Shown: positions 17,511 to 34,666 of the stretch, one piece after another
Position numbering within the stretch: position 1 is the first letter of the stretch
Layout of the letters: every line of letters begins with the position of its first letter
From: Pseudomonadota bacterium
Lineage (GTDB): Bacteria > Pseudomonadota > Gammaproteobacteria > Burkholderiales > Burkholderiaceae_C
NCBI GenBank assembly: GCA_021845505.1
Contig: JAJZVU010000003.1
Coordinates: forward strand, 1 to 64,000
Direction of reading: 5' to 3'
Length of the DNA: 64,000 nt
Notes under the pieces: generated by a model
Seen by the model: the letters and a program-made list of their open reading frames with translations, nothing else
Databases searched by the model: none
What the model was told of the DNA's origin: nothing
Position numbers and translations under genes: made by a program

Positions 17511-17534
17511 TGGGGGACGAACGAACCCGGAAAA

Positions 17535-17570: not shown

Positions 17571-17648
17571 GCCCGCGCCAGCCGGGTCGAGGCGCCGGCA
17601 CGGGCGGCCCGCGGGCCCGCAGGGCCGGGGGGCTTCCCGCAGGACTGC

Positions 17649-18446: not shown

Positions 18447-18526
18447 GCCGCCGCGGCTGCGCGAGCCTTGCAGCCCCCGGCCCGATCTGCGCGCGGGAAC
18501 GTGGCGCTGGCTGGGATGAGTCCCGC

Positions 18527-19984
18527 TTATGGCGTCACCCCGCCAAAGCAAAGGTACTTGATCTCGACGTACTCGTCGATACCGTACTTGGATCCCTCAC
18601 GCCCGATGCCCGATTCCTTCACCCCGCCGAATGGGGCGACCTCGCTGGAGATCAGCCCCGTGTTGATCCCGACCATACCACACTCCATGGCCTCGGCCAC
18701 GCGCCAGATCCGGTTGACATCACGCGAATAGAAGTACCCGGCCAGGCCGAATTCGGTGGCGTTGGCCAGCGCGATCGCCTCGGCGTCGGTATGGAAGCGG
18801 AACAATGGCGCGACGGGCCCGAAGGTCTCCTCGCGCGCCACCAGCATGTCGGGGCTCACGTCGGCCAGGATGGTCGGCTCGTAGTAGGACCCTCCCAGCG
18901 CGTGTCGCCGGCCCCCGCTGACCACGCGGGCTCCCTTGGCCAGCGCATCGCGGATATGCTCCTCGACCTTGTCGAGAGCGCTGGAGTCGATCAGCGGACC
19001 CTGGGTGACCTGCGCGTCCAGGCCGTTGCCGACCTTGAGCTTGCGCACGGCATCGGCGAGCTTCCGGGCAAAGGCCTCGTACACCCCGTCCTGCACCAGG
19101 ATGCGGTTCGCGCAGACGCAGGTCTGCCCGGTATTGCGATACTTCGAGGCCATCGCCCCTTCCACGGCCGCGTCGAGGTCGGCATCGTCGAACACCAGGA
19201 AGGGCGCATTGCCGCCAAGCTCCATGGACACCTTCTTCACCGTGCCCGCGCACTGCGCGATGAGCTTGCGCCCGACCGCGGTCGACCCCGTGAACGACAG
19301 CTTGCGCACCAGCGGGTTCGAGGTGATCTCGCCCCCGATCTCCACCTCGTCGCCGGTGAGCACGCTGAAGACCCCGCGCGGCACCCCCGCGCGCTCGGCG
19401 AGTTCCGCCAGCGCGAAGGCCGACAGAGGCGTCTGCAGCGCCGGCTTGACGACCATGGTGCAGCCGACCGCCAGCGCAGGCCCGGCCTTGCGGGTGATCA
19501 TCGCCGACGGGAAATTCCACGGCGTGATCGCCGCGGTGACGCCCACCGGCTGCTTGATCACCACGATCCTGCGGTCGGCGGCGAAACCGGGGATGGTGTC
19601 GCCATACACCCGCTTGGCCTCCTCGCCGAACCATTCGAGGAAGGACGCCGCATAGACGATCTCGCCCTTCGACTCGGCCAGGGGCTTTCCCTGCTCGCTG
19701 GTCATGATCCAGGCGAGGTCGTCGGCGTTGGCGAGCATCAGATCCGCCCAGTTGCGCAAGATGGCCGCGCGCTGCTTGCCGGTACGCTCGCGCCAGGACA
19801 CCTGGGCCGCATGCGCGGCGGCGATGGCCCGGCGTGTCTCGGCCGTGCCCATCACGGGGACGTGCGCGACGTCGACTCCGGTGGCGGGATTGCGCACCGC
19901 GATGGTCCTTCCGCTGTCGGCAGCGACCCAGGCGCCATCGAGATAGCACAACTGGCGCAGCAAGGTGGGATCTTTCAGACTCAT
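18527..19984 (-). CDS. NAD(P)-dependent aldehyde dehydrogenase, succinate-semialdehyde type
   Basis: Enzyme of 485 aa, GabD/BlcA-like, which would oxidise succinate semialdehyde to succinate. Visible motifs are TPWNFPSAMITRK near 150 (cofactor site), FTGSTAVGRKL near 225, VSMELGGNAPFLVF with catalytic Glu, and NTGQTCVCANRILVQ with catalytic Cys near 285; SEVAPFGGVKESGIGREGSKYGI ends the protein as in SSADHs. I chose the ATG at 19984, which has GGAGG 5 nt upstream; a 40-residue extension lacks support. It lies 43 bp after the lactonase. Substrate assignment relies on family resemblance and context. Confidence 0.93.
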   Translation of the reverse strand: MSLKDPTLLRQLCYLDGAWVAADSGRTIAVRNPATGVDVAHVPVMGTAETRRAIAAAHAAQVSWRERTGKQRAAILRNWADLMLANADDLAWIMTSEQGKPLAESKGEIVYAASFLEWFGEEAKRVYGDTIPGFAADRRIVVIKQPVGVTAAITPWNFPSAMITRKAGPALAVGCTMVVKPALQTPLSAFALAELAERAGVPRGVFSVLTGDEVEIGGEITSNPLVRKLSFTGSTAVGRKLIAQCAGTVKKVSMELGGNAPFLVFDDADLDAAVEGAMASKYRNTGQTCVCANRILVQDGVYEAFARKLADAVRKLKVGNGLDAQVTQGPLIDSSALDKVEEHIRDALAKGARVVSGGRRHALGGSYYEPTILADVSPDMLVAREETFGPVAPLFRFHTDAEAIALANATEFGLAGYFYSRDVNRIWRVAEAMECGMVGINTGLISSEVAPFGGVKESGIGREGSKYGIDEYVEIKYLCFGGVTP

Positions 19985-20027
19985 GCGTTCCTCCGAGGAT
20001 TCGATCGGCCCGTGCGACGGCTCCAAG

Positions 20028-21050
20028 CTATTCGTAGTAGCCGTCGGTGGATTTGCGGATGGATGCGAATTGCTCGACGTCGTGCCCGAACCAGACGTCG
20101 GCACCCTTGTTGGCGGCGATGCCCCGGATCCGCTCGATGGTGCGGGCGAAGCCGACGGAATCGAAGCTGATGCCGGGCGGCTTCATCGGCGGACCGTAGT
20201 TCTCCGCCGTGTAGCAGGCATCGGCCACCAGCAGGACCCCATTGCGGCTGCGCAGATCGACATCGAGTCCGAGCATGCCGTAGGCATGGCCGCTGCCGAA
20301 ATTGAGCAGGCGCACTCCGGGCACCAGATTCTGGTCCGGCGCGTCGCGCGAGACCAGCCGCCAGTTCAGGTTGAGTCGCGACCAACGCTCGAGATCGCCG
20401 ACGACGTAGGGTGTGTTGTGGTCGCGCAGCGCGAAGTGCCGGTACGCACCGAGGAACTCGTCCTCGTGGACGATCAACTGCGACTTGCGGAAGTACTCGA
20501 CGCAACCCGCATGATCGCAATGCAGGTGCGACAGCACGACATGGCGGATCTGGTCCGGCCCCACCCCCAGGGCTTCCAGGCGCGCCGGAAGCATGCATTC
20601 GTCGCCGCCGATCACCGGAAAGATTTCCTGTGTCTGCTGGGGCCAGCGGCCATTCGGGCCGCCCCAGTCGGGGTGGCAGCCGGTGTCGTACAGCACGTTG
20701 CCGTCGGGATGCTCGATGAAATAGGCCGAGACCGGGATGTCGATGACCTGCCCCGGGGGGTTGGGGTTTCGCGCCGTGGCCACCGTCGAATTGGCCACCA
20801 TGAAGTTCTTGTCCAGGCGCAACTTGCCCAGATCGAGCACGTGCATGCGCAGCGAGTCGCTCGCCCGCGCGACGCGCCCGGCGCGCCAGTTCGGGGTCGA
20901 CGCCCGCCGTTCGGCCGGCGTCGCCGGGGCCGCCGGCGCAGCCCACTGCGAGGACTCGCGCCAACCGACCGCGGGCACCACGCTCTCCCGGATCTTGATT
21001 CCGTCGGATCGACCGGTTACCTCTTCCTTGTCAAATTCGATGATCTTCAT
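20028..21050 (-). CDS. Metallo-beta-lactamase-fold lactonase, AttM/BlcC-like
   Basis: Hydrolase of 340 aa. The dinuclear metal motif is VLSHLHCDHAG; further ligands are the His in NFGSGHAYGM, the Asp in LLVADACYT and the His in VWFGHDVEQF. NVLYDTGCHPDWGGPNGRWP and the C-terminal GHD...FASIRKS pattern resemble AttM/AiiB, which open gamma-butyrolactone and acyl-homoserine lactones. About 75 extra N-terminal residues, rich in Ala and Pro, precede the core. The ATG at 21050 has AGGA 6 nt upstream. Beside an SSADH, an Fe-ADH and an IclR gene, a gamma-butyrolactone-like substrate is more likely than a quorum signal, but both are possible. Confidence 0.9.
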   Translation of the reverse strand: MKIIEFDKEEVTGRSDGIKIRESVVPAVGWRESSQWAAPAAPATPAERRASTPNWRAGRVARASDSLRMHVLDLGKLRLDKNFMVANSTVATARNPNPPGQVIDIPVSAYFIEHPDGNVLYDTGCHPDWGGPNGRWPQQTQEIFPVIGGDECMLPARLEALGVGPDQIRHVVLSHLHCDHAGCVEYFRKSQLIVHEDEFLGAYRHFALRDHNTPYVVGDLERWSRLNLNWRLVSRDAPDQNLVPGVRLLNFGSGHAYGMLGLDVDLRSRNGVLLVADACYTAENYGPPMKPPGISFDSVGFARTIERIRGIAANKGADVWFGHDVEQFASIRKSTDGYYE

Positions 21051-21112
21051 CGTCGTTCCTGTGCCTGCCTCGGATGTGCGCGATCGCTGCGACGAAACGC
21101 CACTGCGCGCCT

Positions 21113-21967
21113 TCAACCGCCGGTGCGCTCACGGATGATGCGCAGCGCTTCCTTCAGGTACATCCTGAACCGCGGATAGTTCTCGCTCATCGGAAAGTGG
21201 CCGATATCGGTCATTTCGATGTACACCCCGCCACGGATGCGGCGGGCCGTGTTCTCGGTCGCTTCCGGCGGTGTCAGGTAGTCGTAGGTGCCGGTCATCA
21301 TGACCACGGGGCAACGCCGACCGTCGATGTCCTCCAGTTCCTTGCGCAGGTCGTGGTCCACCGAATAGAAGTACAGATCGCCCTTGAAGGCCTCCGAACC
21401 CTGGGTGTAGTAGTGCCAGGTCAGCCAGCGATCCATGTCGGGCGAGTGCGGGGACATCAGGTCCCAGACGCCGCTGGCGCATACCTGCGCCGCGTTGGCG
21501 TGCGGGTGGCGCCACCAGTCGAGGAAGAAGCCCGGCGCATAGTCCGCGGCCTCCACCGGGATCACCGCCTTGAAGCGATCGGGCCGGCGCAACGCCAGTT
21601 GCAGCGCGACATTGCCGCCGAAGGACGAACCCATGAAGATCGGGTTCTTCAGTTCGAGGGCATCGCAGAACTTGACGATGAAGTTGACGTAGTGTTCGGC
21701 CGTCAGCTTGTACTCCGACTTCCACCATTCGGAGTTCAGCGGCGGGTCGGTCTTGCCGTGTCGCGCCAGGTCATAGGCGATCACGTTGTAGTCCTTGGTG
21801 ATCTCCTCGTCCTCCAGCAGGCCGCGCCATTGGTGATTGTGGCAACCCGCGGTGTGCTGGCAGACCAGCGGCTGGCCCTGCCCGTTGTGAAGATAGAAGA
21901 CCTTGTATTCGAAGCCGTCGACGTCGATCGTGACGTAGCGGCCTGTGACCGGTGAATGACGGACCAT
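21113..21967 (-). CDS. Alpha/beta-hydrolase fold protein
   Basis: Hydrolase of 284 aa. The nucleophile elbow is FMGSSFGGNVALQLAL near residue 112; the acid is probably in MTGTYDYLTPPEAT near 225 and the base His in DIGHFPMSENYP near 260. The oxyanion region is CQHTAGCHNHQWRGLL. AGGAGG lies 7 nt before the ATG. It is absent from the classical blcABC operon, so it may act on an ester or second lactone that feeds the pathway. The substrate is unknown. It is spaced 62 bp from the lactonase and 43 bp from the SCP2-like gene. Confidence 0.9.
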   Translation of the reverse strand: MVRHSPVTGRYVTIDVDGFEYKVFYLHNGQGQPLVCQHTAGCHNHQWRGLLEDEEITKDYNVIAYDLARHGKTDPPLNSEWWKSEYKLTAEHYVNFIVKFCDALELKNPIFMGSSFGGNVALQLALRRPDRFKAVIPVEAADYAPGFFLDWWRHPHANAAQVCASGVWDLMSPHSPDMDRWLTWHYYTQGSEAFKGDLYFYSVDHDLRKELEDIDGRRCPVVMMTGTYDYLTPPEATENTARRIRGGVYIEMTDIGHFPMSENYPRFRMYLKEALRIIRERTGG

Positions 21968-22010
21968 GCTTGCGCCTCCTGGTTTGGTGTGGGGTACTGG
22001 TGCGGTGCGC

Positions 22011-22400
22011 TCAGACCGGGACGCCGCTCTTGCGCAGCACCTCGAACTGCGCAGTGAAGTTGCGCAGGTTCTGCATCAGTACGAGCAGGTTGCCCTCGAG
22101 CTTGAGGTCCTCGCGGAAGCTGGCCGCCCAGATGCCATGGAACATCGGTCGCGGCAGCGGCTGCCCGAATTCGCGCCAGGTCTGGGCGCTGGCGCGCAAC
22201 GCAAAGTCGTAGGCGTCGAGTGGCTGCGGGTCGGTGTTGATGCGCTTGACCTTGCCGTCGTGCATCTCGATGATCACCTTGCATTCGGTCATGTCGAACA
22301 TGAAGGTGCAGGTGTAGTACCTCGCCATCGCGGCGATCGTCGGATCGCTGTCGCTCAGGCTCTTGAACCGGCTGGCCCAACTCTTGATGTCGATTGCCAT
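22011..22400 (-). CDS. SCP2-like sterol/lipid-binding domain protein
   Basis: Soluble protein of 129 aa. The alternating pattern CTFMFDMTECKVIIEMHDGK followed by DAYDFALRASAQTWREF and LPRPMFHGIWAASFREDLKLEGN resembles SCP2-type proteins, in which a beta-sheet caps a hydrophobic tunnel. The assignment is from pattern memory and is tentative. The ATG at 22400 has GAGG 7 nt upstream. Located between the hydrolase and the alcohol dehydrogenase, it might bind a hydrophobic substrate or CoA ester. No enzymatic residues are recognised. Confidence 0.65.
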   Translation of the reverse strand: MAIDIKSWASRFKSLSDSDPTIAAMARYYTCTFMFDMTECKVIIEMHDGKVKRINTDPQPLDAYDFALRASAQTWREFGQPLPRPMFHGIWAASFREDLKLEGNLLVLMQNLRNFTAQFEVLRKSGVPV

Positions 22401-22453
22401 ATTCAACCTCGTCGGTTTCGGGTCGGTGGTGCGCGCGGCTTGCTCAGCGCCCG

Positions 22454-23611
22454 TCACCAGGCTGCTGCATAGATGTCCCGCGCATCGGCCTGGCTGAGTG
22501 CTCGGGGGTTGTTGACCAGCAGGCGCGTCTGCAGCATCGCATCCGCAGCCAGTGAGTCGATCGCTTCGCGTGGGATGCCGACGTCGCGCAGGCGGGTAGG
22601 CAGGCCGCAACGCCGCGCAAGCTCATCGAGCTCGTCGGCAAACGCGGCCGCGCGTTCGGCCGCCGGCAGGGCGGCCAGCCGCGGGAACGCGCATACCGAG
22701 GTTTCGGCATAGGCCTCGGCCGCGGTCACCGCGTTGAATCGCAGCACATGCGGCAGCACCAGCGAGTTGGACAGTCCATGCGGCACGTGGTAGTGGCCCC
22801 CGATCGGGTAGGCCAAGGCATGCACCGCGGCGACCGGGGAGTTGGCGAAGGCCTGCCCGGCGAGCATCGCGCCCAGCAGGTTGTCGGCTCGCGCCGCGCG
22901 GTCCCGGCCATCGCGCACCGCCCGCTCCAGCGAGGCCCCCAGCAAGCGCAGCGCCTCGCGCGCGATGGAGCGCGAAAGCGGGTTGTTGTTGGCACTTGCC
23001 GACGCGTGGGCTTCGATCGCATGCACCATGGCGTCGATGCCGGTCATCGCCGTCGTGGCCGGCGGCAGGCCATAGGTCAGCTCCGGATCGAGCAGCGCGA
23101 TGTCGGGCAGGATCACCGGCGTGACCACCCCCTTCTTTTCACTCGCTCCCGTGGTCACGATGGAAATCGGCGTGACCTCCGATCCGGTTCCCGCGGTCGT
23201 CGGCACGAGCATCAGCGGAAGGCGCGGGCCCTTGGCGTTGCCTACCCCATAGACGTCGGCCAGGCGCTCCTTGCCGAGCGCCAGCAGCGCGACCAGCTTG
23301 GCCACGTCCATCGACGAGCCGCCACCAAAGCCGATGACCGAGTCACCTCCGAATTCGACGGCCAGCGCGACCGCGGCCTCGATCACCGCCTCCGGCGGAT
23401 CGGCGACCACCTCCGAGTACACCCGGACCTCGGCTCCCGCGCCGCGCAGCGACTGCAGCGCCGGCTCCAGGATCCCCGATCGCAGCAGCCCCGGGTCGGT
23501 CACCAGGAAGATCCGGCGCCCAAGTCGCGCCTTCGCGATCTCGCCGATGCGCGATGACGCTCCCTCGCCGAAGGTCACCTGCCCGACGGTGTTGAATGCA
23601 AAACTCGCCAT
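22454..23611 (-). CDS. Iron-containing (type III) alcohol dehydrogenase, BlcB-like
   Basis: Enzyme of 385 aa. The NAD-binding GFGGGSSMDVAKLVALLA is near 90, the family block LMLVPTTAGTGSEVTPISIV near 130, and metal ligands lie in TGIDAMVHAIEAHAS (Asp, His), and in AVHALAYPIGGHYHVPHGLSN (His residues). The ATG at 23611 has GGGAG 7 nt upstream; sequence further 5' belongs to the symporter gene region. In the blc system the equivalent enzyme oxidises gamma-hydroxybutyrate to succinate semialdehyde, which would link the lactonase and the aldehyde dehydrogenase here. Confidence 0.93.
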   Translation of the reverse strand: MASFAFNTVGQVTFGEGASSRIGEIAKARLGRRIFLVTDPGLLRSGILEPALQSLRGAGAEVRVYSEVVADPPEAVIEAAVALAVEFGGDSVIGFGGGSSMDVAKLVALLALGKERLADVYGVGNAKGPRLPLMLVPTTAGTGSEVTPISIVTTGASEKKGVVTPVILPDIALLDPELTYGLPPATTAMTGIDAMVHAIEAHASASANNNPLSRSIAREALRLLGASLERAVRDGRDRAARADNLLGAMLAGQAFANSPVAAVHALAYPIGGHYHVPHGLSNSLVLPHVLRFNAVTAAEAYAETSVCAFPRLAALPAAERAAAFADELDELARRCGLPTRLRDVGIPREAIDSLAADAMLQTRLLVNNPRALSQADARDIYAAAW

Positions 23612-23663
23612 TTCCGAACTCCCTTGACCAGGCCGCCGCCGGCGCGCATGCGCCGCCGACGCG

Positions 23664-25697
23664 TCATCCAAAGACCCAGTGGGCGCCGACGACCACGGCG
23701 ACCGCGATCGCCACGCCCCAGAACCATCGCTTCCATTCGCCCGCGGCCGGGGCCGCGGCTCGCCGCGCGTCGGAGTCGCCCAGCGGGGCGAATTCGACGC
23801 TCCTGCCGCTGATGGTGGAGAGCTCCATCTTGTAGGCGAGGAACCAGACCACCACCACGCCGAGCGCCCACCACAGCAACTGCCACATCCACAGCGAGGG
23901 CAGGCCCAGGCTCCAGCCACGGGCCCCGGCGTCGGGAGCGCCGAAGGCACTGTTTCCGATCAAGGCGCCGGGCCCCACCGCGAAGAACAGCCAGGCCAGC
24001 GTCATGGACCAGGCGAGCGCGCGCAAGCGGCGCTTGCCCGGAGCGGCGAATTCGCGCAGGAAATCGTGGAACTGCTGGCGATGGGCTCGCTCGCCCTCGC
24101 GGTGGCTGATCCAGGACACCACCAGGCAGACCAGCACGTTGACAAAGATGCCCCAGCCCGCCGAGTGGATGGTCCAGGGCCAGCGCCCCCACGGCAGCGC
24201 AAAGCCGACGAAGCGGGTCAGCGCGGTTCCGATCGGCTCGGTCAGGATGACCGCCGCCATGCCGAAGAACAGTCCCAGCAGCACCCCGGGGCGGGTGATC
24301 CAGGGCAGCCAGCACACCGCCGCCAGCGCCGGCACGAGCTGCAGTCCGAAGGACAGCGCGAGCACGCCCATCGCGCTTTGCGCGCCGGGAGCGTAGGTCG
24401 CCAGCAGCAGCGCGCCGAGGATCGACAGCCCGATGCCGACCCTCCCGTACAAGGTGACGCGACGATCTTCGGCATGCGGATCGAAATAGCGCTGACAGAT
24501 GTCGCGGGCGAACAGCGTGCCGGTGGCGCTGGCGAAACCGGCGGTCACGACCTGGATGGCAGCCAGCGCGCACACCGCCAGCAGCGCGGCGAACCAGGGC
24601 TCCTCGCGGGCCACCGCGGCCATGTACAAGAGCGCCACATGCATGGCGTCGCCCGAACGCAGCGCGGGCAGGAAATGCGGCAAGCCGGCGCCGGGGGTCG
24701 GCCCGGACGGCGACGCCCCGAGAAAGTGCGCGCCCAGCCCGGCCACTGCCGGGAAGAACACCAGGACCAGGCCCATCACCGCGGCCGACGCCCACACCTG
24801 CTGCGCCGCGAAACCCTTCACGCTGCTGCAGCCCATGCCCCAGATGGTGTAGGCCGGCGAGGCCTGCAGGCCCATCAGCGCGAGCACGTAGCTGAGGATC
24901 ATCGAGGTCGTCCACACGCCGCCGACGGCCTGCCCGTGGCCCAGGCCATCGGTGAACTGGATGACCCCGGGGATCGACAGATAGGCGCTGTACCCCTTGG
25001 CCGACACGCCCCAGGGGCCGGCATGCCCGGCGCCCAGGCGGCCCAGCGCGTCCATCAGCGGCTGCAGGCCGCCGAGCTGCTCGAGCGCCACGACGCCGAT
25101 GGCCACCAGCCCCACGAGCAGCAGCAGGCCCTGGTAGGTGCCGGCGTACGCGGCCCCCCGCATGCCGCCTATGCACACGTAGAGGAACAGCACGAAGCTC
25201 AGCACCCACATCGCCAGCGTGCCGTCGATCGCGCCGTTCGACAGGAAGGCGATCAGGTACCCCGTCGCGCGCAGTTGCATGCCGACGAAGGGGATGGCGA
25301 AGCACAGGCCGACCAGCACCACCAGCAGGCGGATCGTCTCGCCGCCGAAATAATGGCCGAGCAGGTCCGCGGCGGAGTTGTGGCCGAAGCGCCTGGCGAG
25401 CAGCCATTGGCGCTTGAGGAAGAGCACGCCGACCAGCGGCATGGCCACCGCGGCCAGCGCCGTCTCGTTGAACGGCAGGCCATCGCGAAACACCAGTGCC
25501 GGCTGGCCGAGGAAGAACCAGCCGGAGAACGACATGGCGGTGGCCATCACGACGAATACCCAGGGCGGCAGCCTGCGGTCGGCAAGCAGGAAGTCGCTGG
25601 CGCTCCCGCCCATGCGCGCCGCCGTCACGCCCCAGTACAGGCAGTACACGGCGTAGGCTGCAACCAAGGCACACAGCCAGACGAGCTTAGCTTGCAA
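23664..25697 (-). CDS. Sodium:solute symporter family (SSF) transporter
   Basis: Membrane protein of 677 aa with about 13-14 helices. N-terminal ASDFLLADRRLPPWVFVVMATAMSFSGWF is the SSF core entry, and later YTIWGMGCSSVKGFAAQQVWASA and GFASATGTLFARDICQRYF match the family. A long C-terminal part with two further helices and a short tail makes it larger than usual. The TTG at 25697 overlaps the upstream small membrane gene by 11 nt, implying coupling. It may import the carboxylate or hydroxy acid used by the pathway; a sensory role is also known for long SSF proteins but no kinase domain is present. Confidence 0.9.
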   Translation of the reverse strand: MQAKLVWLCALVAAYAVYCLYWGVTAARMGGSASDFLLADRRLPPWVFVVMATAMSFSGWFFLGQPALVFRDGLPFNETALAAVAMPLVGVLFLKRQWLLARRFGHNSAADLLGHYFGGETIRLLVVLVGLCFAIPFVGMQLRATGYLIAFLSNGAIDGTLAMWVLSFVLFLYVCIGGMRGAAYAGTYQGLLLLVGLVAIGVVALEQLGGLQPLMDALGRLGAGHAGPWGVSAKGYSAYLSIPGVIQFTDGLGHGQAVGGVWTTSMILSYVLALMGLQASPAYTIWGMGCSSVKGFAAQQVWASAAVMGLVLVFFPAVAGLGAHFLGASPSGPTPGAGLPHFLPALRSGDAMHVALLYMAAVAREEPWFAALLAVCALAAIQVVTAGFASATGTLFARDICQRYFDPHAEDRRVTLYGRVGIGLSILGALLLATYAPGAQSAMGVLALSFGLQLVPALAAVCWLPWITRPGVLLGLFFGMAAVILTEPIGTALTRFVGFALPWGRWPWTIHSAGWGIFVNVLVCLVVSWISHREGERAHRQQFHDFLREFAAPGKRRLRALAWSMTLAWLFFAVGPGALIGNSAFGAPDAGARGWSLGLPSLWMWQLLWWALGVVVVWFLAYKMELSTISGRSVEFAPLGDSDARRAAAPAAGEWKRWFWGVAIAVAVVVGAHWVFG

Positions 25698-26118
25698 GGG
25701 AGTCCCCCCCGGAGCGCGATCTCATGTGGAAGCGCGAGAACGCCCCCTTGAGCCCGAACTTGGTGATCAGGTAGGCCAGGAAACACAGGACCAGCGCGGC
25801 GAATCCGGCGATCGCCGCGGCGAATTGCGCTGCAGCCATCGGCGGACCCGCAAGCACCGATGCGATGAAGGCGATGAGCCCGATGCCGAAGGCCACGAAG
25901 CCCGCGACGATCTCGCCGGTGGTGAAGCCGCTGTGGAAGACCGCGTTGATGATCAGGTGGGAGATGAAGGCCGCCACGAGCAGCGCGAACCCGCCGAGGA
26001 TCGCCCAGGGCAGCGGCAGCGTGAAGCCCGACAGCACCAGACACAAGGCGAACGGCCCGAGCAGCGCCCAGCTGCTCGCCACGGCGAGCCGCCTGTGCGT
26101 GGCGTGAAGCGTGCTCAC
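25687..26118 (-). CDS. Small four-helix membrane protein, SSF companion
   Basis: Protein of 143 aa with four predicted helices (WALLGPFALCLVLSGF, WAILGGFALLVAAFISHLII, EIVAGFVAFGIGLIAFIASV, FAALVLCFLAYLITKFG) and a short basic C-terminus. I chose the GTG at 26118 because GGAG lies 7 nt upstream; a TTG at 26154 is also open. I recognise no named family. Its overlap with the symporter start suggests it is an accessory subunit. It lies 32 bp after the flotillin gene. Confidence 0.78.
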   Translation of the reverse strand: MSTLHATHRRLAVASSWALLGPFALCLVLSGFTLPLPWAILGGFALLVAAFISHLIINAVFHSGFTTGEIVAGFVAFGIGLIAFIASVLAGPPMAAAQFAAAIAGFAALVLCFLAYLITKFGLKGAFSRFHMRSRSGGDSLAS

Positions 26119-26150
26119 GAGATGTCTCCGACGTGCGTCGCCGCCACGGC

Positions 26151-27878
26151 TCAACGGCGAGGTTCGGCGTCGCCGTCAGCGACCGGTCCGGAGGACAGAT
26201 CCCCCAGCTGCTTGGCGGCCACGATGTCCGCCAGCCCCTTGCCTTCGCCATGCATCAGGTTGCCCAGGGTCGACATCGATCCCGGCGCGATGCCGATCTG
26301 GCCCAGCATCTCCTCGACGAACGGCGCCTGCACGCGGTAGCGCAAGGCCGCGTTCACCGCGTGGTCGGCCAGGCTGCCGCTGCCGCCCGTCTCGGCCGCT
26401 CCGTCGATGCCCCCGGCACCGCCCCCGCCATTGAGCCCCGGCATGCCCTGCACCTGCAGGATCTTGATGGAATCGATGCGCTCGATGGGCTTGACGCTCT
26501 CGCGAATGATCTCCGGCAGCCGCTCCAGCAGCTTGCGGTACAGGCCGCTGCGCCGGCTGGCATCCGAACGCAGGTTCTCGGCTTCATTGAGCGCGCGCTG
26601 CCCCTCGGCATCGACCGCATAGCGCAGCTGCGCGGCCTCGGCCAGCACGCGATCGGCCGCGGCGCGTTCGACGGCCGCCTGCTTCTCGGCCGCGGCCAGC
26701 GTGCGCAGCTTGATGGCCTCGCGCTCGGCCTCCTGCTCGGCAAGCAGCAGCTCGACCAGCTTGCGCCGCTCGGCGATCTCGCGCTCGCGCGCCGACACCA
26801 CGCGCTCGCGCGCGGCCACCGCTGCCGCGTTGGCCTCCTCGGCGATGGCCTGGGTCTCCGATTGCGCCTTGCTCTTCTGCGCCACCGCGATGAGCCGCTC
26901 CTGGTCCTCGATCTCCACGTCGCGCCTGCGCTTGAGCTCCAGGCGCTCGATCTCGAGCTGACGCTCGATGCGCGCTGCCTCGACTGCGCGCTCCTGGCGG
27001 ATGCGGGCCTTTTCCACCTCCTCGACGGCGCGGATCTGCGCCTCCTCGGTCTCGCGCTCGCGCTCGGCCTTCTCCAGCGCGATCTCGGCGCGCTGCTTGG
27101 CGCGGCGAACCGAGACCTCGCGCTCCTGCTCGAGGCGCGAGAACTCGCTTTCGCGCGCGATGCTCAGCGTCAGCTGCTCGGACTCCAGGTTCTTGCGCCG
27201 CATCGCCACCGCGGTGTCCTGCTCGATGTCGTTGCGCTTCTTCTTGCGCGACTCGATCTCCTCGGTCAGGCGCGTCAGGCCTTCCGCGTCGAAGGCGTTC
27301 GACGGGTTGAACAGCTTCATGTCCGTCTGGTCGAGGCCCGTCAGCGAGGCCGCCTCCAGCTCGAGCCCGTTGTGGGTCATCGCATCGGCGACCTGCTCGC
27401 GCACCTCGCTGATGTAGCGGCCGCGATGCTCGTGGATCTCCTCCATGCTCATCTTGGCAGCCACCAGGCCCATGGCGTCCACGAAGCGGCCTTGCACGAG
27501 GTCCTTCAGGCTCTCCGGGTTCATCGTGCGCCGGCCGAGGGTGCGCGCAGCCGCGGCGACGGACTCCTCCTTGGGCATCACCCGCACGAAGAACTCGACC
27601 GTGACGTCGATGCGCATGCGATCGCGCGTGATCAGGGCCTGCTCGCGGCCACGGCGCACCTCCAGCCGCAAGGTGTTCATGCTGACTTCGGTGACGTCGT
27701 GGACGATCGGCAGCACCAGCGCGCCACCGCCCATCACGACCTTCTCGCCCCCCAGACCGGTACGCACGAAGGACACGTCCTTCGACGACCTGCGGTACAG
27801 CCAGTGCAGCAGATAGACAGCGACCGCGATGACGATCGCGACCAGGATGACGATCGCTATGATGTCCGAGCCGTTCAT
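26151..27878 (-). CDS. Flotillin / SPFH-domain protein (YqiK/YuaG type)
   Basis: Protein of 575 aa. One N-terminal membrane helix (about 5-24) is followed by an SPFH domain (about 35-200), a long Glu/Lys/Arg-rich coiled coil with EA-type repeats (about 210-450), and a Gly-rich linker GLNGGGGAGGIDG ahead of a helical C-terminus. Bacterial flotillins scaffold membrane microdomains and protein complexes. The usual NfeD-type partner is not next to it; instead it lies between an opsin-like gene and a symporter subunit. A role organising these membrane proteins is plausible inference. Confidence 0.93.
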   Translation of the reverse strand: MNGSDIIAIVILVAIVIAVAVYLLHWLYRRSSKDVSFVRTGLGGEKVVMGGGALVLPIVHDVTEVSMNTLRLEVRRGREQALITRDRMRIDVTVEFFVRVMPKEESVAAAARTLGRRTMNPESLKDLVQGRFVDAMGLVAAKMSMEEIHEHRGRYISEVREQVADAMTHNGLELEAASLTGLDQTDMKLFNPSNAFDAEGLTRLTEEIESRKKKRNDIEQDTAVAMRRKNLESEQLTLSIARESEFSRLEQEREVSVRRAKQRAEIALEKAERERETEEAQIRAVEEVEKARIRQERAVEAARIERQLEIERLELKRRRDVEIEDQERLIAVAQKSKAQSETQAIAEEANAAAVAARERVVSAREREIAERRKLVELLLAEQEAEREAIKLRTLAAAEKQAAVERAAADRVLAEAAQLRYAVDAEGQRALNEAENLRSDASRRSGLYRKLLERLPEIIRESVKPIERIDSIKILQVQGMPGLNGGGGAGGIDGAAETGGSGSLADHAVNAALRYRVQAPFVEEMLGQIGIAPGSMSTLGNLMHGEGKGLADIVAAKQLGDLSSGPVADGDAEPRR

Positions 27879-27952
27879 ACTTCCATCCCTTTCCGTTCAA
27901 TCGAAAGTCGGGCGCGCGGCGCCTTGCTCGTGCACGGCCGCCGCTCCGCCGA

Positions 27953-28657
27953 TCAGCGCGCCGAGGTCGAATCCCGCATCGCGGCGGTCAGCACGATCAG
28001 CCCGAACGTGACCTGATTGACCAGGTCGGCCAGGTTGTAGATGATGGTCAGCCTGCCTTCGTCGATGCCGCCGGCGAAGCTGCCGATGAAGTTGCACAGC
28101 GGGTACACCGCCCAGCCGACACTGACGATGAGGCGCAGCCAGAAGAAGCCCGTCTGGCTCGAGCGCGAGCCGTTGCGCGAGTTGACCTCGCTCATGCGGC
28201 CGAAGAACACCTCGCCGAGGATGTACAGCCAGCCGGCCAGGCCGATCAGGAAGCCCAGCGTCGGGTAGAAGAACCCGACTTCGCCCATGTAGCGCGAGAG
28301 TTCGGTCAGCACCGCGACGACCAGCAGCCGCCAGAACAGCCCGTAGGGCAGCGTCGCCTGCGCGGCTATGTAGAAGTACAGGGTCACCACCTGCAGCGGC
28401 ACCGCGATCAGCCAGCCGATGTAGCGATAGATCACCGGCATGTCGTGCGTGCCGAGCCAGATGGCGTCCATCTGCACGTACTGCAACGCCGCCACCAGCA
28501 GCGCGACCGCAGACAGGGCTACCGGAACCTTCCATTTGCGTTGCGCCCAGGCCGTGCCGAGCAGCAGCAGCACGGACGCCGCGGCCGTGGATGCGGCCAG
28601 CAGGGCGAACGATCCGCCGACGACGTCGGTCGCCTGCAACACCCCGGCTGCGCTCAT
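27953..28657 (-). CDS. Type-1 opsin-like protein lacking the retinal-binding lysine
   Basis: Seven-helix protein of 234 aa that aligns without gaps in the key helices to proteorhodopsin. Helix C reads YRYIGWLIAVPLQVV: Arg78 is kept, but the primary proton acceptor position is Gly81 and the donor position is Thr92. Helix F keeps GWAVYP. Helix G reads YNLADLVNQVTFGLI: Asp211 is kept, but the Schiff-base lysine position is Gln215. The helix B His position is Gln59. It therefore cannot bind retinal covalently in the standard way. The ATG at 28657 has GGGGAG 7 nt upstream. Lysine-less type-1 opsins are a known class of unclear function; a sensory or transport-accessory role here is speculation. 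Confidence 0.9.
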   Translation of the reverse strand: MSAAGVLQATDVVGGSFALLAASTAAASVLLLLGTAWAQRKWKVPVALSAVALLVAALQYVQMDAIWLGTHDMPVIYRYIGWLIAVPLQVVTLYFYIAAQATLPYGLFWRLLVVAVLTELSRYMGEVGFFYPTLGFLIGLAGWLYILGEVFFGRMSEVNSRNGSRSSQTGFFWLRLIVSVGWAVYPLCNFIGSFAGGIDEGRLTIIYNLADLVNQVTFGLIVLTAAMRDSTSAR

Positions 28658-28766
28658 CGCACGGCTCCCCGCTGCGTCTGGTCGCCGCGCTTCGCGTCGC
28701 GGCTGCCGCTGGATTCGTCTTGCATTTGGCTCCCCAAGGTGATGCGATGCCACCGGCCCTCGCCGG

Positions 28767-30191
28767 TCACACCTGCGTGCGGATATGCGGCGAGCGCGCG
28801 TACAGCGCGACCATCGGCAGGATCAGCAGCCCGAAGATGAATTGCTGCCATTGGAATGTCAGCCCGATACCCACCAGAAAGGATGTCAGCACCTGCAGCA
28901 CGAGCACGCCGATGACCGTGAAGCCATAGCCTCCGGCGCCGCCCAGCAGCGATGTCCCGCCGATGACCACGGCTGCCAGCGTGGTGAACAGATAGGGCTG
29001 CCCGACGCCGATGAAGCCGCCGCCGCTCCACCCCAGCAGCAGCGCACCGGTCAGCGCCGAGGCCGCGCCGCTGATCGCGTACGCGGCCACCCAGTAGCGG
29101 CGCTCGGAGATCATGAGGCGGCTGGCCGAGGTCCGGTTGCCGCCGAGCGCATAGATGTAGCGTCCATACACCGTGTGGCGCATTCCCAGGATCAGCCCGA
29201 TGGCGACGGCGATCCAGATCAGGATGACAGGGGGAATGGCCAGCCCGAAGGTCCGTCCGTTCATCGCGGCCAGGTTGCTCAGCCAGTGCGGGACGGTGCC
29301 GAACACGTTGCCGGCGAAGCTCGAGCCCAGGCTGGTGACGATCTGCGTACTGCCGGACACGGCAAAGCCCACCCCGAGCGTGAGGATCAGCGCCTGGCCC
29401 TGCAGGCGGAAACTGAGGAAGCCGTTGAGCAGGCCGATGAGGGCTCCGATCACGAGCACGAGAATCACCGCCAGCCAGGACGGCACCCCCAGGCCCATCA
29501 GGTAGAGCAAGCCGACGTTCGCGGCGCCGATGACAAAGGGAATCGACAGATCGAGGCCGCCGAGCAACGCCACCAGCGTCTGTCCCACCGATGCCATGCC
29601 CAGGAAGGAGGCGAAGAGCAGCATGGAGCGCAGGTTGGCCGGCGAGATGAAGCCATCGATCTCGAGCGAACCGATGACGAACAGGCCGACCAGCACCATC
29701 AGGCCGATGAACGCGCTCTTGTTGGCGGCGACGAAGCGGTTCATCACCGCCGAGAAGACGAGCAGCGCGATGAGGACGACTGCGGAGATGATGTTCAGCG
29801 CGTCGAAGAACCCTTTGACGGTCACCGACGCGATGCCGAACACGATCAGCACCAGGCCGATGCCGATCAGCACCGCGCGATGGCGGGCGATCCACACCCG
29901 CCACCCCTTGCTGCCGGCACGGCCGCCGGCGGCCTGCGAGGCCGCGTCCGCCGCGCCCTCGGCGGCCTGCGCACCCCCCGCCTGCTGGGCGTAGTAGCGC
30001 CACGCCCAGGTCACCAGCGCGAAGGTCGCCACGGTGTAGAAGATCACCTCCTGCACGGGCAGGTGCTGTCCGAGGCCGAGGCCGAAGCCGACCGCGGAGA
30101 TGGCCAGCGCCACCGGCAGCCCGAGCCACCTGCGCAGCGCGCCCGACGCGCGGCGACGCGGCGCCGCGTGCTGCTCGGCCGGGGTGTTCAC
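28767..30191 (-). CDS. Ribose-type ABC transporter permease (second subunit)
   Basis: Inner-membrane permease of 474 aa in the RbsC/BPD_transp_2 family. After two N-terminal helices and a Gly/Ala linker come the usual helices, with SVGQTLVALLGGLDLSIP near 215 and the cytoplasmic EAA-like region YGRYIYALGGNRTSASRLM near 350; AAVVIGGTSLLGGAGG is also typical. The N-terminal 110 residues extend beyond RbsC length. The GTG start at 30191 overlaps the preceding permease gene as GTGA and has GGAGG 7 nt upstream. It is followed after 109 bp by the opsin-like gene. Confidence 0.92.
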   Translation of the reverse strand: MNTPAEQHAAPRRRASGALRRWLGLPVALAISAVGFGLGLGQHLPVQEVIFYTVATFALVTWAWRYYAQQAGGAQAAEGAADAASQAAGGRAGSKGWRVWIARHRAVLIGIGLVLIVFGIASVTVKGFFDALNIISAVVLIALLVFSAVMNRFVAANKSAFIGLMVLVGLFVIGSLEIDGFISPANLRSMLLFASFLGMASVGQTLVALLGGLDLSIPFVIGAANVGLLYLMGLGVPSWLAVILVLVIGALIGLLNGFLSFRLQGQALILTLGVGFAVSGSTQIVTSLGSSFAGNVFGTVPHWLSNLAAMNGRTFGLAIPPVILIWIAVAIGLILGMRHTVYGRYIYALGGNRTSASRLMISERRYWVAAYAISGAASALTGALLLGWSGGGFIGVGQPYLFTTLAAVVIGGTSLLGGAGGYGFTVIGVLVLQVLTSFLVGIGLTFQWQQFIFGLLILPMVALYARSPHIRTQV

Positions 30192-31627
30192 TTGCGCGCC
30201 TCCAGGTGATGCAGGCTGCGCCCGGCGGCCCACGGTGCATGCCCGGAAATGGTGAAGATCCCCAGCAGGATCACGCCGGCGATCACCAGGTGGATCAGCG
30301 GCGCAAGGCCCTGCCTGCGGCTGGCCTGCGCGGGCGCGACGCGCAGCGCCAGCGTGGCGGCCAGCAGCAGCAGCACGATCGAGAGCACCGGCCAGGCGAG
30401 CGTCGATGGCGCTCCGGCTGTGGCGCCCGCTGCGGTTGCGGTCGACTCGAAGGGCATGGTCTCGTCACGCGCCGGCAGCGCGTCGCCGGCGCGTCGGGAG
30501 CGCGGCGGCGCGACGGCCCGGTGGCCGGTCGATGCCACCGCCGCGGCCCGCGGCTTGGGCGCCGCGTAGTCGTAGCCCGCATGCAGGATCACCCCCAGCG
30601 CGACCAGCGAGCAGATGACGAAGAACAGCAGCGGCGAGAGATCGCCCACCAGCCGACGGACGTAGGGCAGCGCCAGGGTCAGCAGCAGCGAGGCCACGAG
30701 CACCGTGCCGTAGGACAGGTCGGTCACGAAGCTCTGCACCGCGCCGAAATTGAAGGTGGCCAGCACCGCCGTGATCAGGTACAGGTTCAGCGCTCCCAGC
30801 AGGGAGCCGATCGCCCCGCCACGCCCTCCGGCCAGGCTCGTTCCACCCAGCACCAGGGCCGTGATGGCGATCAAGGTGTAGGTGGTGCCCTGGGTCGGGT
30901 CGCCGGAGCCGATCAGCGAGGTGTAGGTGATCGAGGCGAGCGCCGCGTACAGCCCGGCGATGACGTGCGCGCCAAGGCGCACGAGGTTGATGCGCACGCC
31001 GCTGGTGTAGGCGGCGCGCTCGTCGGATCCCATCAGTCGCAGGTGCCCGTAGAAGGGAGTCAGGGTGAACAGCAGCCAGGCCACGGTGGCCAGCACCAGG
31101 ATCGCCGTCACGGGCGACCAGATCGAGGTGCCCTGTCCCCAGTTGGACATCCAGTCGGGCGTCGTCCCGCCGGGACGCGCCATGATCACGAGGTTGATCC
31201 CGGACAGCGCCAGGTAGCCGCTCAGCGACACGATGATCGGCTGCACCCTGACGAAAATGATGACCAGGGCCATGACGACCTGGTAGCTCACGCCCACCAG
31301 GGCGGCCCACAGGAAGAAGGTCAGCGGCGAGCCGATGACGTGGGCGCCGAAGAGCTGTACCAGCGTGACGTTGATGAACCCGATCAACGGGCCGATCGAC
31401 AGGTCCACGGTGCCGCGCCCGGCTATGGCCAGCGCCATCACCGCGTAGGTCGCCAGGACCAGTGGGGTGGCCACGATGATCGCGCCGCCGACTCCCGAGT
31501 TCGTCACCAGGTTCGGCGTTCGCAGCACGGCCACGATCAGCAGCACGAACAGCAGGACGATGGGCACGAACAGGTACGTGCTCGATGCCGTCGACTGCCG
31601 GGACGGGTTCAGGTCGCCCGCGCTCAC
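30188..31627 (-). CDS. Ribose-type ABC transporter permease (first subunit)
   Basis: Permease of 479 aa in the same family. GRGTVDLSIGPLIGFINV near 70, GSDERAAYTSGVRINLVRLG near 205 and ITALVLGGTSLAGGRGGAIGS near 260 are family blocks. The C-terminus carries an unusual extension of about 130 residues with a proline/alanine-rich linker (about 365-420) and two further hydrophobic segments. The GTG start at 31627 overlaps the stop of the ATPase gene by 4 nt. The two permeases would form a heterodimeric channel, and both being enlarged is a feature of this system. Confidence 0.92.
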   Translation of the reverse strand: MSAGDLNPSRQSTASSTYLFVPIVLLFVLLIVAVLRTPNLVTNSGVGGAIIVATPLVLATYAVMALAIAGRGTVDLSIGPLIGFINVTLVQLFGAHVIGSPLTFFLWAALVGVSYQVVMALVIIFVRVQPIIVSLSGYLALSGINLVIMARPGGTTPDWMSNWGQGTSIWSPVTAILVLATVAWLLFTLTPFYGHLRLMGSDERAAYTSGVRINLVRLGAHVIAGLYAALASITYTSLIGSGDPTQGTTYTLIAITALVLGGTSLAGGRGGAIGSLLGALNLYLITAVLATFNFGAVQSFVTDLSYGTVLVASLLLTLALPYVRRLVGDLSPLLFFVICSLVALGVILHAGYDYAAPKPRAAAVASTGHRAVAPPRSRRAGDALPARDETMPFESTATAAGATAGAPSTLAWPVLSIVLLLLAATLALRVAPAQASRRQGLAPLIHLVIAGVILLGIFTISGHAPWAAGRSLHHLEARK

Positions 31628-33384
31628 CGCGTGCCCCCCATGCCGCCGAGGCGCGCCGCGCGCATCCACGGAGGCAGCAGGCGCAGCTCGCGCAGGGCCG
31701 CATCCTCCTCCGCGGCGGCGTCGCCGGCGCCCGCCTGCGCCCCGGCGCTTGCGCCGCCCTGACCGAACATCGACTCCAGGATGCGCGCGGGCTCGATCTG
31801 CGAGCCGGTGAACTCGCCGAAGATGGTGCCGTGGCGAAACACCAGCACCCGCGTGCAGAAGCCGACGAACTCCTCGATCTCGCTGGACAGGTAGACGACC
31901 GACTTGCCACGCTGCGCAAAGGCGCCCAGGTGCTTGTAGAGCTCGGCCTTGGCGCCGATGTCGATGCCCCGGGCGGGATCATTGAGCAGCAGGATCTCGG
32001 GGCTGAGGGCGAAGGCCCTGCCGATGAGCACCTTCTGCTGGTTGCCGCCCGAAAGCGAAGTGATGCGATTGCTGCGCGCGCCCATGCGCACGGCCAGCCG
32101 CTCGATCTCCCAGTCGAACACCCCCTGCAGGGCGCGCCGGTTGATCACCGACAGCCAGCCCGCGCGGGCCGTGCGGCGGTACAACGGCATCAGGAGATTC
32201 TCGTAGATGCTCAGGTTGGCGAAGATGCCTTCCTTCTTCCGGTCCCCTGACACATAGACCACGCCATGGCGTGCCGCGTCGGCCAGTCCATGGATGTCGG
32301 CGAACCCGGTGCCGTCGCGCTCGCGCACCGCGGGCGTCTCCCGCTCGGCGCGCTGGATTCCGGCCAGCGCGCGGATGAACTCGTTCTGGCCCTGGCCGTC
32401 CAGCCCGGTCAGACCCACCACTTCACCCTTGTGCAGCGCGAAGTCGATGCCGGGGCCTCGCCGGCTCAGCGCCAGGCCGCTCGTCTTCATGACGAGTTCG
32501 TGCCCCAGCACTTCCCGCGCCCTCAGCTGGGAGATCGGCGCCGGCGCCTCCTTGCCGGTCATCAGGTCGAGCAGGTTGCGCTCGGTGATGTCCTGGCGCT
32601 CCAGCACGCCGACGTCGCGTCCGTCGCGCAGCACGGTGGCGCGGTCGCTGATCTGGATCAGCTCGGCGATGCGATGGGTGACGATGAGGATCGCCGAGCC
32701 CTGATCGCGCAACTGACGCATCTTGGTGAACAGGCGCTGCGTCGAATCCAGATCGAGCGCGGCGGAGGATTCATCGAGGATCAGCACCTTGGGTTCGGTC
32801 AGCAGCGCGCGACCGATGGTGATCCACTGCTTGACGCTCAGCGGAAGCGTTCCCACCAGGGTCTGCACGTCGATCTCGAAACCCAGCAGGTCGGCCATCA
32901 GGGCATGCGCGGCGGCGACCTTCTCGCGCTCCGACTTGGACCGCGTCCACAGGCGATCGGCGCCCAGGAACAGGTTGTCGACCAGCGTGCACTCGTCGGC
33001 GACCAGGACCTCCTGGAACACCGTCGCGATGCCCTGCGCGCGTGCATCGTGCGGGTTGCTCGGCATGTGCCCGAGCACGGAGACCTGCCCGCCGTCGATC
33101 GGCAGCACGCCGGAGAGGACCTTGGCCAGCGTGCTCTTGCCGCAGCCGTTTCCCCCGACGATGGCGTGGATCTCGCCCATGTGGGCGCTGAAGGTGCAGC
33201 CGTCGAGGGCGCGCGTCACGCCGAACGACTTGCGCACGTTCACCGCGGAGATCTCGCCGGTGACGATCGCCGGCGGCGCGGCCTCTCGACCTGCCTCGAC
33301 GGGTCGAGGCAGTTCGTAGTGGTGCCCGGCCGGTGGGATCCCACCGGCCGCGCCGGCTGATTGCGGCATCGACTGCGAAGTCAT
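31624..33384 (-). CDS. Ribose-type ABC transporter ATP-binding protein (tandem NBD)
   Basis: Protein of 586 aa with two nucleotide-binding domains, as RbsA. The first has Walker A VGGNGCGKSTLAKVL near 78, Walker B VLILDESSAALD and a weak signature LPLSVKQWITIGRA. The second has a degenerate Walker A GLDGQGQNEF, as is normal in this family, a full signature SLSGGNQQKVLIGRA and ILLLNDPARGID. An N-terminal extension of about 45 residues and a C-terminal Ala-rich tail flank them. It powers import by the two following permeases. Its gene begins 40 bp after the binding-protein gene. Confidence 0.94.
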   Translation of the reverse strand: MTSQSMPQSAGAAGGIPPAGHHYELPRPVEAGREAAPPAIVTGEISAVNVRKSFGVTRALDGCTFSAHMGEIHAIVGGNGCGKSTLAKVLSGVLPIDGGQVSVLGHMPSNPHDARAQGIATVFQEVLVADECTLVDNLFLGADRLWTRSKSEREKVAAAHALMADLLGFEIDVQTLVGTLPLSVKQWITIGRALLTEPKVLILDESSAALDLDSTQRLFTKMRQLRDQGSAILIVTHRIAELIQISDRATVLRDGRDVGVLERQDITERNLLDLMTGKEAPAPISQLRAREVLGHELVMKTSGLALSRRGPGIDFALHKGEVVGLTGLDGQGQNEFIRALAGIQRAERETPAVRERDGTGFADIHGLADAARHGVVYVSGDRKKEGIFANLSIYENLLMPLYRRTARAGWLSVINRRALQGVFDWEIERLAVRMGARSNRITSLSGGNQQKVLIGRAFALSPEILLLNDPARGIDIGAKAELYKHLGAFAQRGKSVVYLSSEIEEFVGFCTRVLVFRHGTIFGEFTGSQIEPARILESMFGQGGASAGAQAGAGDAAAEEDAALRELRLLPPWMRAARLGGMGGTR

Positions 33385-33424
33385 GACGTCGTGCAGCGCT
33401 CGGGCCGGGCGTCTTGCGAACGCA

Positions 33425-34594
33425 TCAGGGCTTGTACTTCGTCGGGTCCGCCGGGTGGACGAAGAACTTGTCCAGGTAGGCGTTGCTGCCCCAGCGATCG
33501 GTGCCCACGTTCAGCCAGCCGTCCGAATTGACGTCGCAGTTGGCCGGCAGTTTGGCCTCGACGTCCTTGTAGGTGAGCTTGACCGGCGGCACCAGGATCG
33601 ATTCGATCTTCGGGCCCTGGCCCTCGAGGGTGCGCATCATGATGTTCCAGGCCAGTTCGATCTCGTCCCCCGGAGGCCACAGCTGGTAGGCGGCGCTGAT
33701 GAAGCCGGGATGCTTGCGCCAGTAGCACAGCGCGCCGAGTTCCCCGCCGATGCTCACCGGGACCATCTTGCGTCCCGACTGTTGCATCGCGCGCAGCACG
33801 CCGAGCTCGGCTGCCGACTGCACGACGATGCCGTCGAGCTTGCCGGGGTGCGTCGCCAGCCACTGCTGCACGGCCGATTGCGCGATCTGGTCGGTCCACA
33901 TTCCGGCCACGTCGCCGACGATCTTCACCCCGGGAGCGGAGGCCAGGCCGGCCTTGATGCCGCGATCCTGCGAGTCCGATCCGGAGGTACCCGGAATGCC
34001 CTCGACGACCAGCACGTTGCCCTTGCCGCCGATCTGCTGGGTCATCCAGTGGCCGAGTTCGTAGCCACCCAGCTGGTAGTTCGTGGAGGCGTTCACCGAG
34101 TAGGGCGACGTCAGGTATCCCGTGAACGAGAACACCGGCACCCCGTGGGCGTAGGCGTACTTGACGGTCGCGTTCAGCGCGGTCGGGTTCGAGCAGCAGA
34201 CGATGATGGCATTGACGCCTTCATCCACCAGTTGCCGCATCTGCTGGATCTGCACCGAGTCCTTGAGGTTGGACTGGGTGATGATCACCTTCTTCACCAG
34301 GCCGAGCTTCTGCCACTTGGGAATGATCTCCTTTTGCAGGCGCTCCATCGCCGCGGCGCGCCAGGTGTTGCCGGCGTACGAACTGGCGTAGCCGATGGTC
34401 CACGGCGGCCCCTTCTTGGCCTTCCAGTTGCGATAGGGACTCGGCCCGATCGGCTGCTGGGGGTCCAGCATCTGCTTGGAATACAGCGACTTCTGGATGT
34501 TGGCCGGCAACTCATCGACGCCGGCAGCCAACGCATAGCCCGTTACCGAGCACAGAAGTGCCAGCGAGAGGCACCATCTCATGAATACCCTCAT
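33425..34594 (-). CDS. Periplasmic substrate-binding protein of the ABC importer
   Basis: Protein of 389 aa with a signal peptide (cleavage probably after SVTGYALA, about residue 19) and a periplasmic-binding-protein fold like ribose/sugar binders: VDEGVNAIIVCCSNPTALN, VPVFSFTGYL and GNVLVVEGIPGTSGSDSQDRG are typical. I chose the ATG at 34594: AGGAGG lies 5 nt upstream, whereas the ATG at 34597 would be too close. It is the first gene of the long minus-strand operon. Ligand identity is not readable; the downstream enzymes suggest a lactone, hydroxy acid or related compound rather than ribose. Confidence 0.92.
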   Translation of the reverse strand: MRVFMRWCLSLALLCSVTGYALAAGVDELPANIQKSLYSKQMLDPQQPIGPSPYRNWKAKKGPPWTIGYASSYAGNTWRAAAMERLQKEIIPKWQKLGLVKKVIITQSNLKDSVQIQQMRQLVDEGVNAIIVCCSNPTALNATVKYAYAHGVPVFSFTGYLTSPYSVNASTNYQLGGYELGHWMTQQIGGKGNVLVVEGIPGTSGSDSQDRGIKAGLASAPGVKIVGDVAGMWTDQIAQSAVQQWLATHPGKLDGIVVQSAAELGVLRAMQQSGRKMVPVSIGGELGALCYWRKHPGFISAAYQLWPPGDEIELAWNIMMRTLEGQGPKIESILVPPVKLTYKDVEAKLPANCDVNSDGWLNVGTDRWGSNAYLDKFFVHPADPTKYKP

Positions 34595-34635
34595 CATCTC
34601 CTCCTTGACCATCCTTGCTGAATCCACTGTCGTCG

Positions 34636-34666
34636 AAAACCCCGCAGCGCCACGAGGGCCGCGGGG
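34636..34666 (-). terminator. Terminator-like hairpin in the operon leader (possible attenuator)
   Basis: Reading the minus strand, CCCCGC pairs with GCGGGG across a 15-nt loop that can itself pair GCC with GGC, and TTTT follows. It lies between the proposed promoter and the first gene, 42 bp before its ATG. It could stop upstream transcription or attenuate the operon. The short T-run makes it a weak candidate. Confidence 0.45.

Follow-up and report, generated by a model that had tools for sequence, protein, structure and literature searches.

The window analysed here, the whole 64,000-nt stretch of DNA, carries on its minus strand a cassette in which an opsin gene lies between an ABC importer and a set of catabolic genes, all read in one direction. 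The cassette starts with a periplasmic substrate-binding protein of the Peripla_BP_4 type (33425–34627; PF13407, E = 9.4e-39), followed by an RbsA/YtfR-type double ABC ATPase (31624–33384; PF00005, with YtfR the closest NCBIfam match, far under its cut-off) and two CUT2-type ABC permeases—permease 1, with 493 aa (30188–31669; PF02653, E = 2e-12, residues 78–308 only), and permease 2, with 488 aa (28767–30233; PF02653, E = 6.9e-22, residues 203–472 only), the latter ending 109 nt before the opsin gene (27953–28657). At about 490 aa each, both permeases exceed the transporter profile, which spans only some 230–270 aa of either; the extra parts, hydrophobic by eye, could be docking regions. A flotillin with SPFH/Band 7 and Flot domains begins 74 nt downstream of the opsin on the same strand (27878–26151; PF15975, E = 4.6e-35; PF01145, E = 1.7e-12). 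Between this gene and a sodium:solute symporter (23664–25697; PF00474, E = 1.4e-16) lies orf155 (25687–26154), encoding a small hydrophobic protein that is present in the lysine-less cassettes and has zero Pfam or NCBIfam matches; it is the least conserved cassette protein in the comparison with locus L014 (68% identity, omega 0.40). The order continues with an iron-containing alcohol dehydrogenase (22454–23611; PF00465, E = 2e-46), an SCP2-fold protein (22011–22400), an alpha/beta hydrolase (21113–21967; PF00561, E = 7.7e-19), a lactonase-like hydrolase of the metallo-beta-lactamase fold (20028–21116; PF00753, E = 9.1e-15; NCBIfam AhlS, E = 3e-107, under the cut-off) and an aldehyde dehydrogenase (18527–20104; PF00171, E = 6.6e-171), and an IclR-family regulator (17649–18551; PF01614, E = 3.9e-29) closes the cassette. 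These gene assignments bear out the original prediction that the opsin is embedded in a catabolic/transport operon. In the profile search of the cassette, no transducer, kinase, chemotaxis or HAMP/MCP gene was found, the sole regulator being IclR.

The product of 22011–22400, which a Pfam sequence search left without a match, is predicted purely from its AlphaFold2 model (pLDDT 91.5; Z = 13.1 to the sterol carrier protein 2cx7) to adopt this lipid-carrier fold; a sterol-carrier domain is also listed among the FArhodopsin (flotillin-associated rhodopsin, FAR) gene clusters in the published account of that family (PMC10308929). In most homologous pairs its gene immediately precedes that of the alpha/beta hydrolase, including pairs away from FAR cassettes (L083–L088), and because the adjacency is kept there the two appear to be long-standing functional partners. 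The alpha/beta hydrolase is the best-conserved cassette protein, at 85–99% identity, but 43% in locus L054. We looked for a pathway among homologues of this hydrolase (41–49% identity), where the SCP2-like neighbour is mostly kept but the surroundings are unrelated, so that none emerged, and for a substrate among the NCBIfam matches of the binding protein and ATPase; these pointed to xylose, ribose, galactofuranose and AI-2, all far under the cut-offs, and we therefore name no substrate.

The opsin gene runs from an ATG at 28657 to a stop at 27953 and encodes 234 aa, with a Shine–Dalgarno-like GGGAGC 6 nt 5' of the start codon. Its product matches the Pfam family PF01036 (Bac_rhodopsin; E = 5.8e-21, with 75.4 bits where the cut-off is 24.6), and the closest solved structures are 9r21 and 9r23 of PsFAR, titled as a flotillin-associated rhodopsin; phmmer against 9r23 gives E = 2e-54. 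An AlphaFold2 model, one of the checks that had been proposed, reached a mean pLDDT of 93 and superimposed on 9r23 with Z = 32.9 and 1.4 Å over 227 residues (Z of about 33 for both PsFAR entries). Together, the phmmer match and the superposition exclude a chance resemblance of the ORF to an opsin; the best matches are opsins and not another seven-helix family, and the preserved fold that had been claimed from the letters alone is borne out. Selection on the gene is purifying, with omega at 0.24 against an 81%-identical relative and 0.03–0.12 among other lysine-less pairs. It is diverging faster than the flotillin and most of the cassette enzymes, with a frame that is intact in all relatives.

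Alignment with PsFAR and the Med12 proteorhodopsin proceeds without a single gap, and the numbering offset to green proteorhodopsin (GPR) is a constant 16, as predicted. On this alignment, all four substitutions originally read from the sequence recur—Lys231 to Gln215 (codon 28013–28015), Asp97 to Gly81, Glu108 to Thr92 and His75 to Gln59—as do the retained Arg78 (R94), Asp211 (D227) and GWAVYP motif at residues 181–186. Residue A85 corresponds to T101 of proteorhodopsin. Helix G, reading IYNLADLVNQVTFGLIVLTAAM, holds no lysine. The site of the retinal-binding lysine is occupied by Q, L, E or T across the lysine-less clade, that of the D97 carboxylate counterion by G, A or L, and that of E108 by T, V or A; R94, D227, Y200 and P201 are unchanged throughout the lysine-less branch, and the Gln105 equivalent is kept in the opsin, as are W182 and Y185. 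With lysine, counterion and donor all replaced, the earlier verdict that the photochemistry has been lost appears right.

A second change lies at residue 122 (codon 28292–28294), which by alignment matches Gly122 in the retinal pocket of bacteriorhodopsin. This position is Gly in 15 of 15 proteorhodopsin-type rows, Glu in lysine-bearing FARs and Arg in all lysine-less FARs, the divergent L031 included; Arg122 of the opsin aligns with Glu120 of PsFAR and V86 with PsFAR H84, and the PDB title of 9r23 gives H84V/E120G, i.e., PsFAR with both residues mutated. By this Gly/Glu/Arg pattern, the FARs compared here carry a charged side chain in place of the proteorhodopsin glycine, its sign flipped in the lysine-less branch. 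In proteorhodopsin oligomers, GPR W34 makes a cross-protomer contact with H75; the tryptophan at this position (residue 18) is kept in proteorhodopsins and lysine-bearing FARs but missing from every lysine-less member. Elsewhere, the pocket is not eroding. With pocket positions transferred from bacteriorhodopsin via the alignment, 12 of 19 are invariant in the lysine-less branch versus 57 of 157 other membrane-helix positions (p = 0.02; 15 of 19 in proteorhodopsins), and Y79, W82, F136, W143, W182, Y185 and P186 do not vary within the main lysine-less clade, where overall identity between subclades is 52–59%.

A maximum-likelihood tree, built without the haloarchaeal lysine-less opsins (ORPs), placed the protein inside the proteorhodopsin/FAR part, on a lysine-less FAR branch. 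All 12 lysine-less rows form this one branch (support 100/100), its sister group being the lysine-bearing FARs, PsFAR among them; the joint clade of 15 rows has support 99/95 and lies inside the proteorhodopsin part. Since the rows form one branch, a single loss of the lysine within this sample is the simplest reading. The rows were drawn from MAGs labelled betaproteobacteria, Comamonadaceae, Rhizobacter and Rhodospirillales and from one divergent genome of the window's class; L031, lysine-less and divergent, sits on a long branch and its exact placement is unsure. A very divergent lysine-less FAR was also seen in locus L054 (positions 5721–20000, genome G415), with a branch length of 2.1 and a stop-to-stop frame of 549 aa; its cassette is rearranged, and the genome also carries a xanthorhodopsin-like pump gene and a gene for the retinal-forming enzyme BCD (Blh/Brp). 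Three 1.3-Mb genomes of the same order (G706, G676 and G610; loci L044, L045 and L046) each carry a tandem pair of lysine-bearing rhodopsins, of which one resembles proteorhodopsin and the other xanthorhodopsin.

With a separate clade beside the proteorhodopsins that includes known FARs, and a flotillin adjacent on the same strand, the opsin is almost certainly a retinal-free, lysine-less FArhodopsin. The original prediction had placed it among lysine-less opsins in general, which was incomplete and missed both this family and the neighbouring flotillin. FArhodopsins were described by Haro-Moreno et al. (2023) in marine SAR11, HIMB59 and Pseudothioglobus (PMC10308929). The DTT/DTL/DNI motif reported there for marine members is absent from the opsin, which has G-A-T; for the freshwater lysine-less branch, the authors do not treat the motif as a criterion (PMC10308929). 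A proteorhodopsin paralogue, seen in marine hosts and likewise no criterion of the family, is also missing here, the host having a single PF01036 gene. According to the same account, freshwater FArhodopsins have Gln, Thr, Leu or Arg instead of the lysine, and an adjacent flotillin whenever contigs are long enough; its main text gives for these members only the lysine replacements, and the sequences came from short metagenome contigs, the presence of proteorhodopsin in their hosts being left undetermined in that description (PMC10308929).

The cassette is conserved around the opsin. In every FAR locus on a long enough contig—ten named loci, the lysine-bearing L052 and L053 and the divergent L054, with L017 excluded as its contig stops just past the opsin—the gene lies between ABC permease 2 and the flotillin, and the cassette is absent from 13 proteorhodopsin control loci (L055–L067). 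Permease-2 orthologues occur in 4 of 369 genomes of the class, exactly the four FAR genomes of that sample. A same-genus contig (C47 of G012) shares with the window only the stretch 17647–34648, i.e., the whole cassette (17.0 kb, 82.6% identity), with nothing alike on either flank; homologues of the window's flanks lie on other G012 contigs. Because the block is thus found at a different location in a genome of the same genus, the cassette moves horizontally as one unit, always retaining the opsin. In the close relative G024 the cassette occupies the same site as in the window, with an assembly break across the opsin; among the other genus members examined, the flanks lay on separate contigs and no clean empty site was found. 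Enzyme content varies between lysine-less and lysine-bearing cassettes: L052 (G363) carries hydantoinase A/B and an N,N-dimethylformamidase-like large subunit (1029–5768 and 16556–19304)—a possible substrate clue—and, in the stretch read, no homologue of the window's dehydrogenases. What looks like a common core of the cassettes comprises the importer, the opsin and the flotillin together with the SCP2-like protein, the hydrolases and the symporter, whereas the other enzymes vary.

The genomes of the hosts bear directly on any role in light. In the host (99.48% complete), the opsin is the sole PF01036 match and no second type-1 rhodopsin was found; 12 other FAR genomes also have one PF01036 gene each, and G415 has a second rhodopsin. 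A heliorhodopsin search for a hidden second rhodopsin, run without a positive control, gave zero matches. The BCD gene was found in neither the host nor these 12 genomes, both lysine-bearing FAR genomes included; it does occur in G415, whose genome combines both kinds of rhodopsin, and in each of the four proteorhodopsin hosts examined. The host lacks RPE65-family oxygenases, as do 12 of the 13 other FAR genomes, the one exception being G761, a lysine-less host. Gene absence is firm only for G000, G012, G088, G363 and G509 (92–100% complete), genomes G754–G761 having been reached through loci, with no completeness given. As the host shows no second rhodopsin and no retinal-making genes, the opsin most likely works without light. 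Marine FAR genomes always contain a proteorhodopsin as well, and FARs were hypothesised to improve its performance (PMC10308929); the present hosts without proteorhodopsin argue against this idea, an argument that need not extend to marine hosts.

Co-inheritance with one importer and one flotillin makes a subunit or organiser of an uptake module the simplest role for the opsin. We propose that it has abandoned photochemistry and would serve, with no retinal bound, as a seven-helix membrane subunit within an uptake module scaffolded by flotillin, a mechanism whose chances we judge to be evenly balanced. Opsin and flotillin would assemble or stabilise a membrane patch holding the dedicated CUT2-type importer, possibly with the sodium:solute symporter as well. 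Through this importer a small organic compound would enter, and it may then be processed by the SCP2-fold protein, the alpha/beta hydrolase, the lactonase-like enzyme and the alcohol and aldehyde dehydrogenases. The contacts of the opsin with flotillin and the permeases, its support of transport and the order of the enzymes are what we infer. In SAR11, FAR and flotillin lie on one transcript and a microdomain role was proposed (PMC10308929).

The strongest rival to the scaffold role, and one that the co-occurrence and the place in the operon suit too, is a sensor or regulator of uptake. In that case, the vacated pocket with its invariant arginine would bind a metabolite of the cassette, possibly some hydrophobic carboxylate, and a conformational change would gate, or signal to, the importer or flotillin; we regard this as possible, though clearly short of probable. 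The pocket residues that stay invariant in the main lysine-less clade at 52–59% identity between subclades, with Arg122 reaching as far as L031, speak for it, and so do the lipid-carrier fold encoded in the cassette, the decanoate held in the same pocket of retinal-free proteorhodopsin (PMC11322631; PDB 8cnk) and the non-light sensing that Becker et al. proposed for haloarchaeal lysine-less opsins (PMC4915679). A pure scaffold does not need a pocket conserved beyond the other helices, although fold packing could explain it. Against a receptor stand the cassette's lack of any transducer, kinase or chemotaxis gene, with IclR as the only regulator, and Arg122 itself, which may plug the cavity instead of lining a pocket. 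The more general idea that lysine-less FARs form a bacterial seven-helix chemoreceptor or transport regulator, whose former retinal pocket, its cage of aromatic residues preserved and the invariant arginine gained, binds the imported and degraded, non-retinal compound and so controls the flotillin-organised ABC importer, we put forward as a conjecture that is rather unlikely in this full form.

A light sensor holding retinal or another carotenoid non-covalently is improbable. The kept R94, D227, W182, Y185 and Gln105 equivalent would suit such a protein, retinal could be scavenged, and G761 has its RPE65-family oxygenases; however, all lysine-less members lack both lysine and counterion and place a charged Arg at the pocket glycine site, the host has neither BCD nor RPE65 genes, and a lysine-bearing DTT rhodopsin expressed in E. 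coli bound no retinal either (PMC10308929). Still less credible is a partner of proteorhodopsin in a mixed complex, as suggested for marine FARs and Rh-noK: for all the constant company of proteorhodopsin in marine FAR genomes (PMC10308929) and the second rhodopsin of G415, the single PF01036 gene of the host contradicts it there, barring a proteorhodopsin in an assembly gap, the 12 other FAR genomes speak likewise, and the cross-protomer Trp34 is lost in all lysine-less members. That the gene is decaying and functionless, as its faster evolution relative to flotillin and most cassette enzymes might suggest, is contradicted by omega values of 0.03–0.24, the intact frames and its retention in a moving cassette, and we give this next to no weight.

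The FArhodopsin family and the freshwater loss of its lysine are already known from the published account (PMC10308929). New, as far as checked, are the host contexts in which proteorhodopsin and the tested retinal genes are missing, the common loss of the counterion, the Gly/Glu/Arg pocket pattern and the importer–opsin co-occurrence; some of the residue pattern may have been documented before. The near-complete genomes bear on a point left open for freshwater FARs—these hosts contain neither proteorhodopsin nor the tested retinal-forming enzymes—which argues against a light-related helper role in them. The tie of this opsin to a single importer makes the question of what lysine-less opsins do directly testable.

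Among known systems, the haloarchaeal ORPs share with the opsin a type-1 fold without the retinal lysine, and some of their hosts lack retinal synthesis (PMC4915679). ORPs, however, group with sensory opsins, many beside HAMP/MCP transducers (PMC4915679), whereas the opsin belongs to the proteorhodopsin/FAR lineage and lies beside a flotillin and an ABC importer, in a cassette lacking such a transducer. Rh-noK of marine betaproteobacteria is likewise a lysine-less bacterial rhodopsin of betaproteobacterial origin, but is xanthorhodopsin-related, occurs in tandem with a proteorhodopsin and pumps once its lysine is restored (PMC10308929); in the opsin, counterion and donor are also gone, and the tandem gene is absent. 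Proteorhodopsin (4jq6, 7b03, 9r22) has the same fold, Arg94, Asp227 and helix F Trp/Tyr/Pro residues, and differs by its lysine, counterion, donor and W34 and by a pocket Gly where the opsin has Arg. Marine FAR hosts possess proteorhodopsin, in contrast to the opsin's host with neither that gene nor the tested retinal-forming genes. PsFAR keeps K213 and D79, and its E120 and H84 stand against R122 and V86 of the opsin. The closest likeness is nonetheless to PsFAR and the freshwater FArhodopsins: they share its clade (99/95), the adjoining flotillin and a charged residue in the retinal pocket; some freshwater members have Gln at the lysine site (PMC10308929); and FArhodopsin cassettes, like the host's, combine an ABC permease, a sodium symporter, an SCP2-like protein, an alpha/beta hydrolase and an iron alcohol dehydrogenase.
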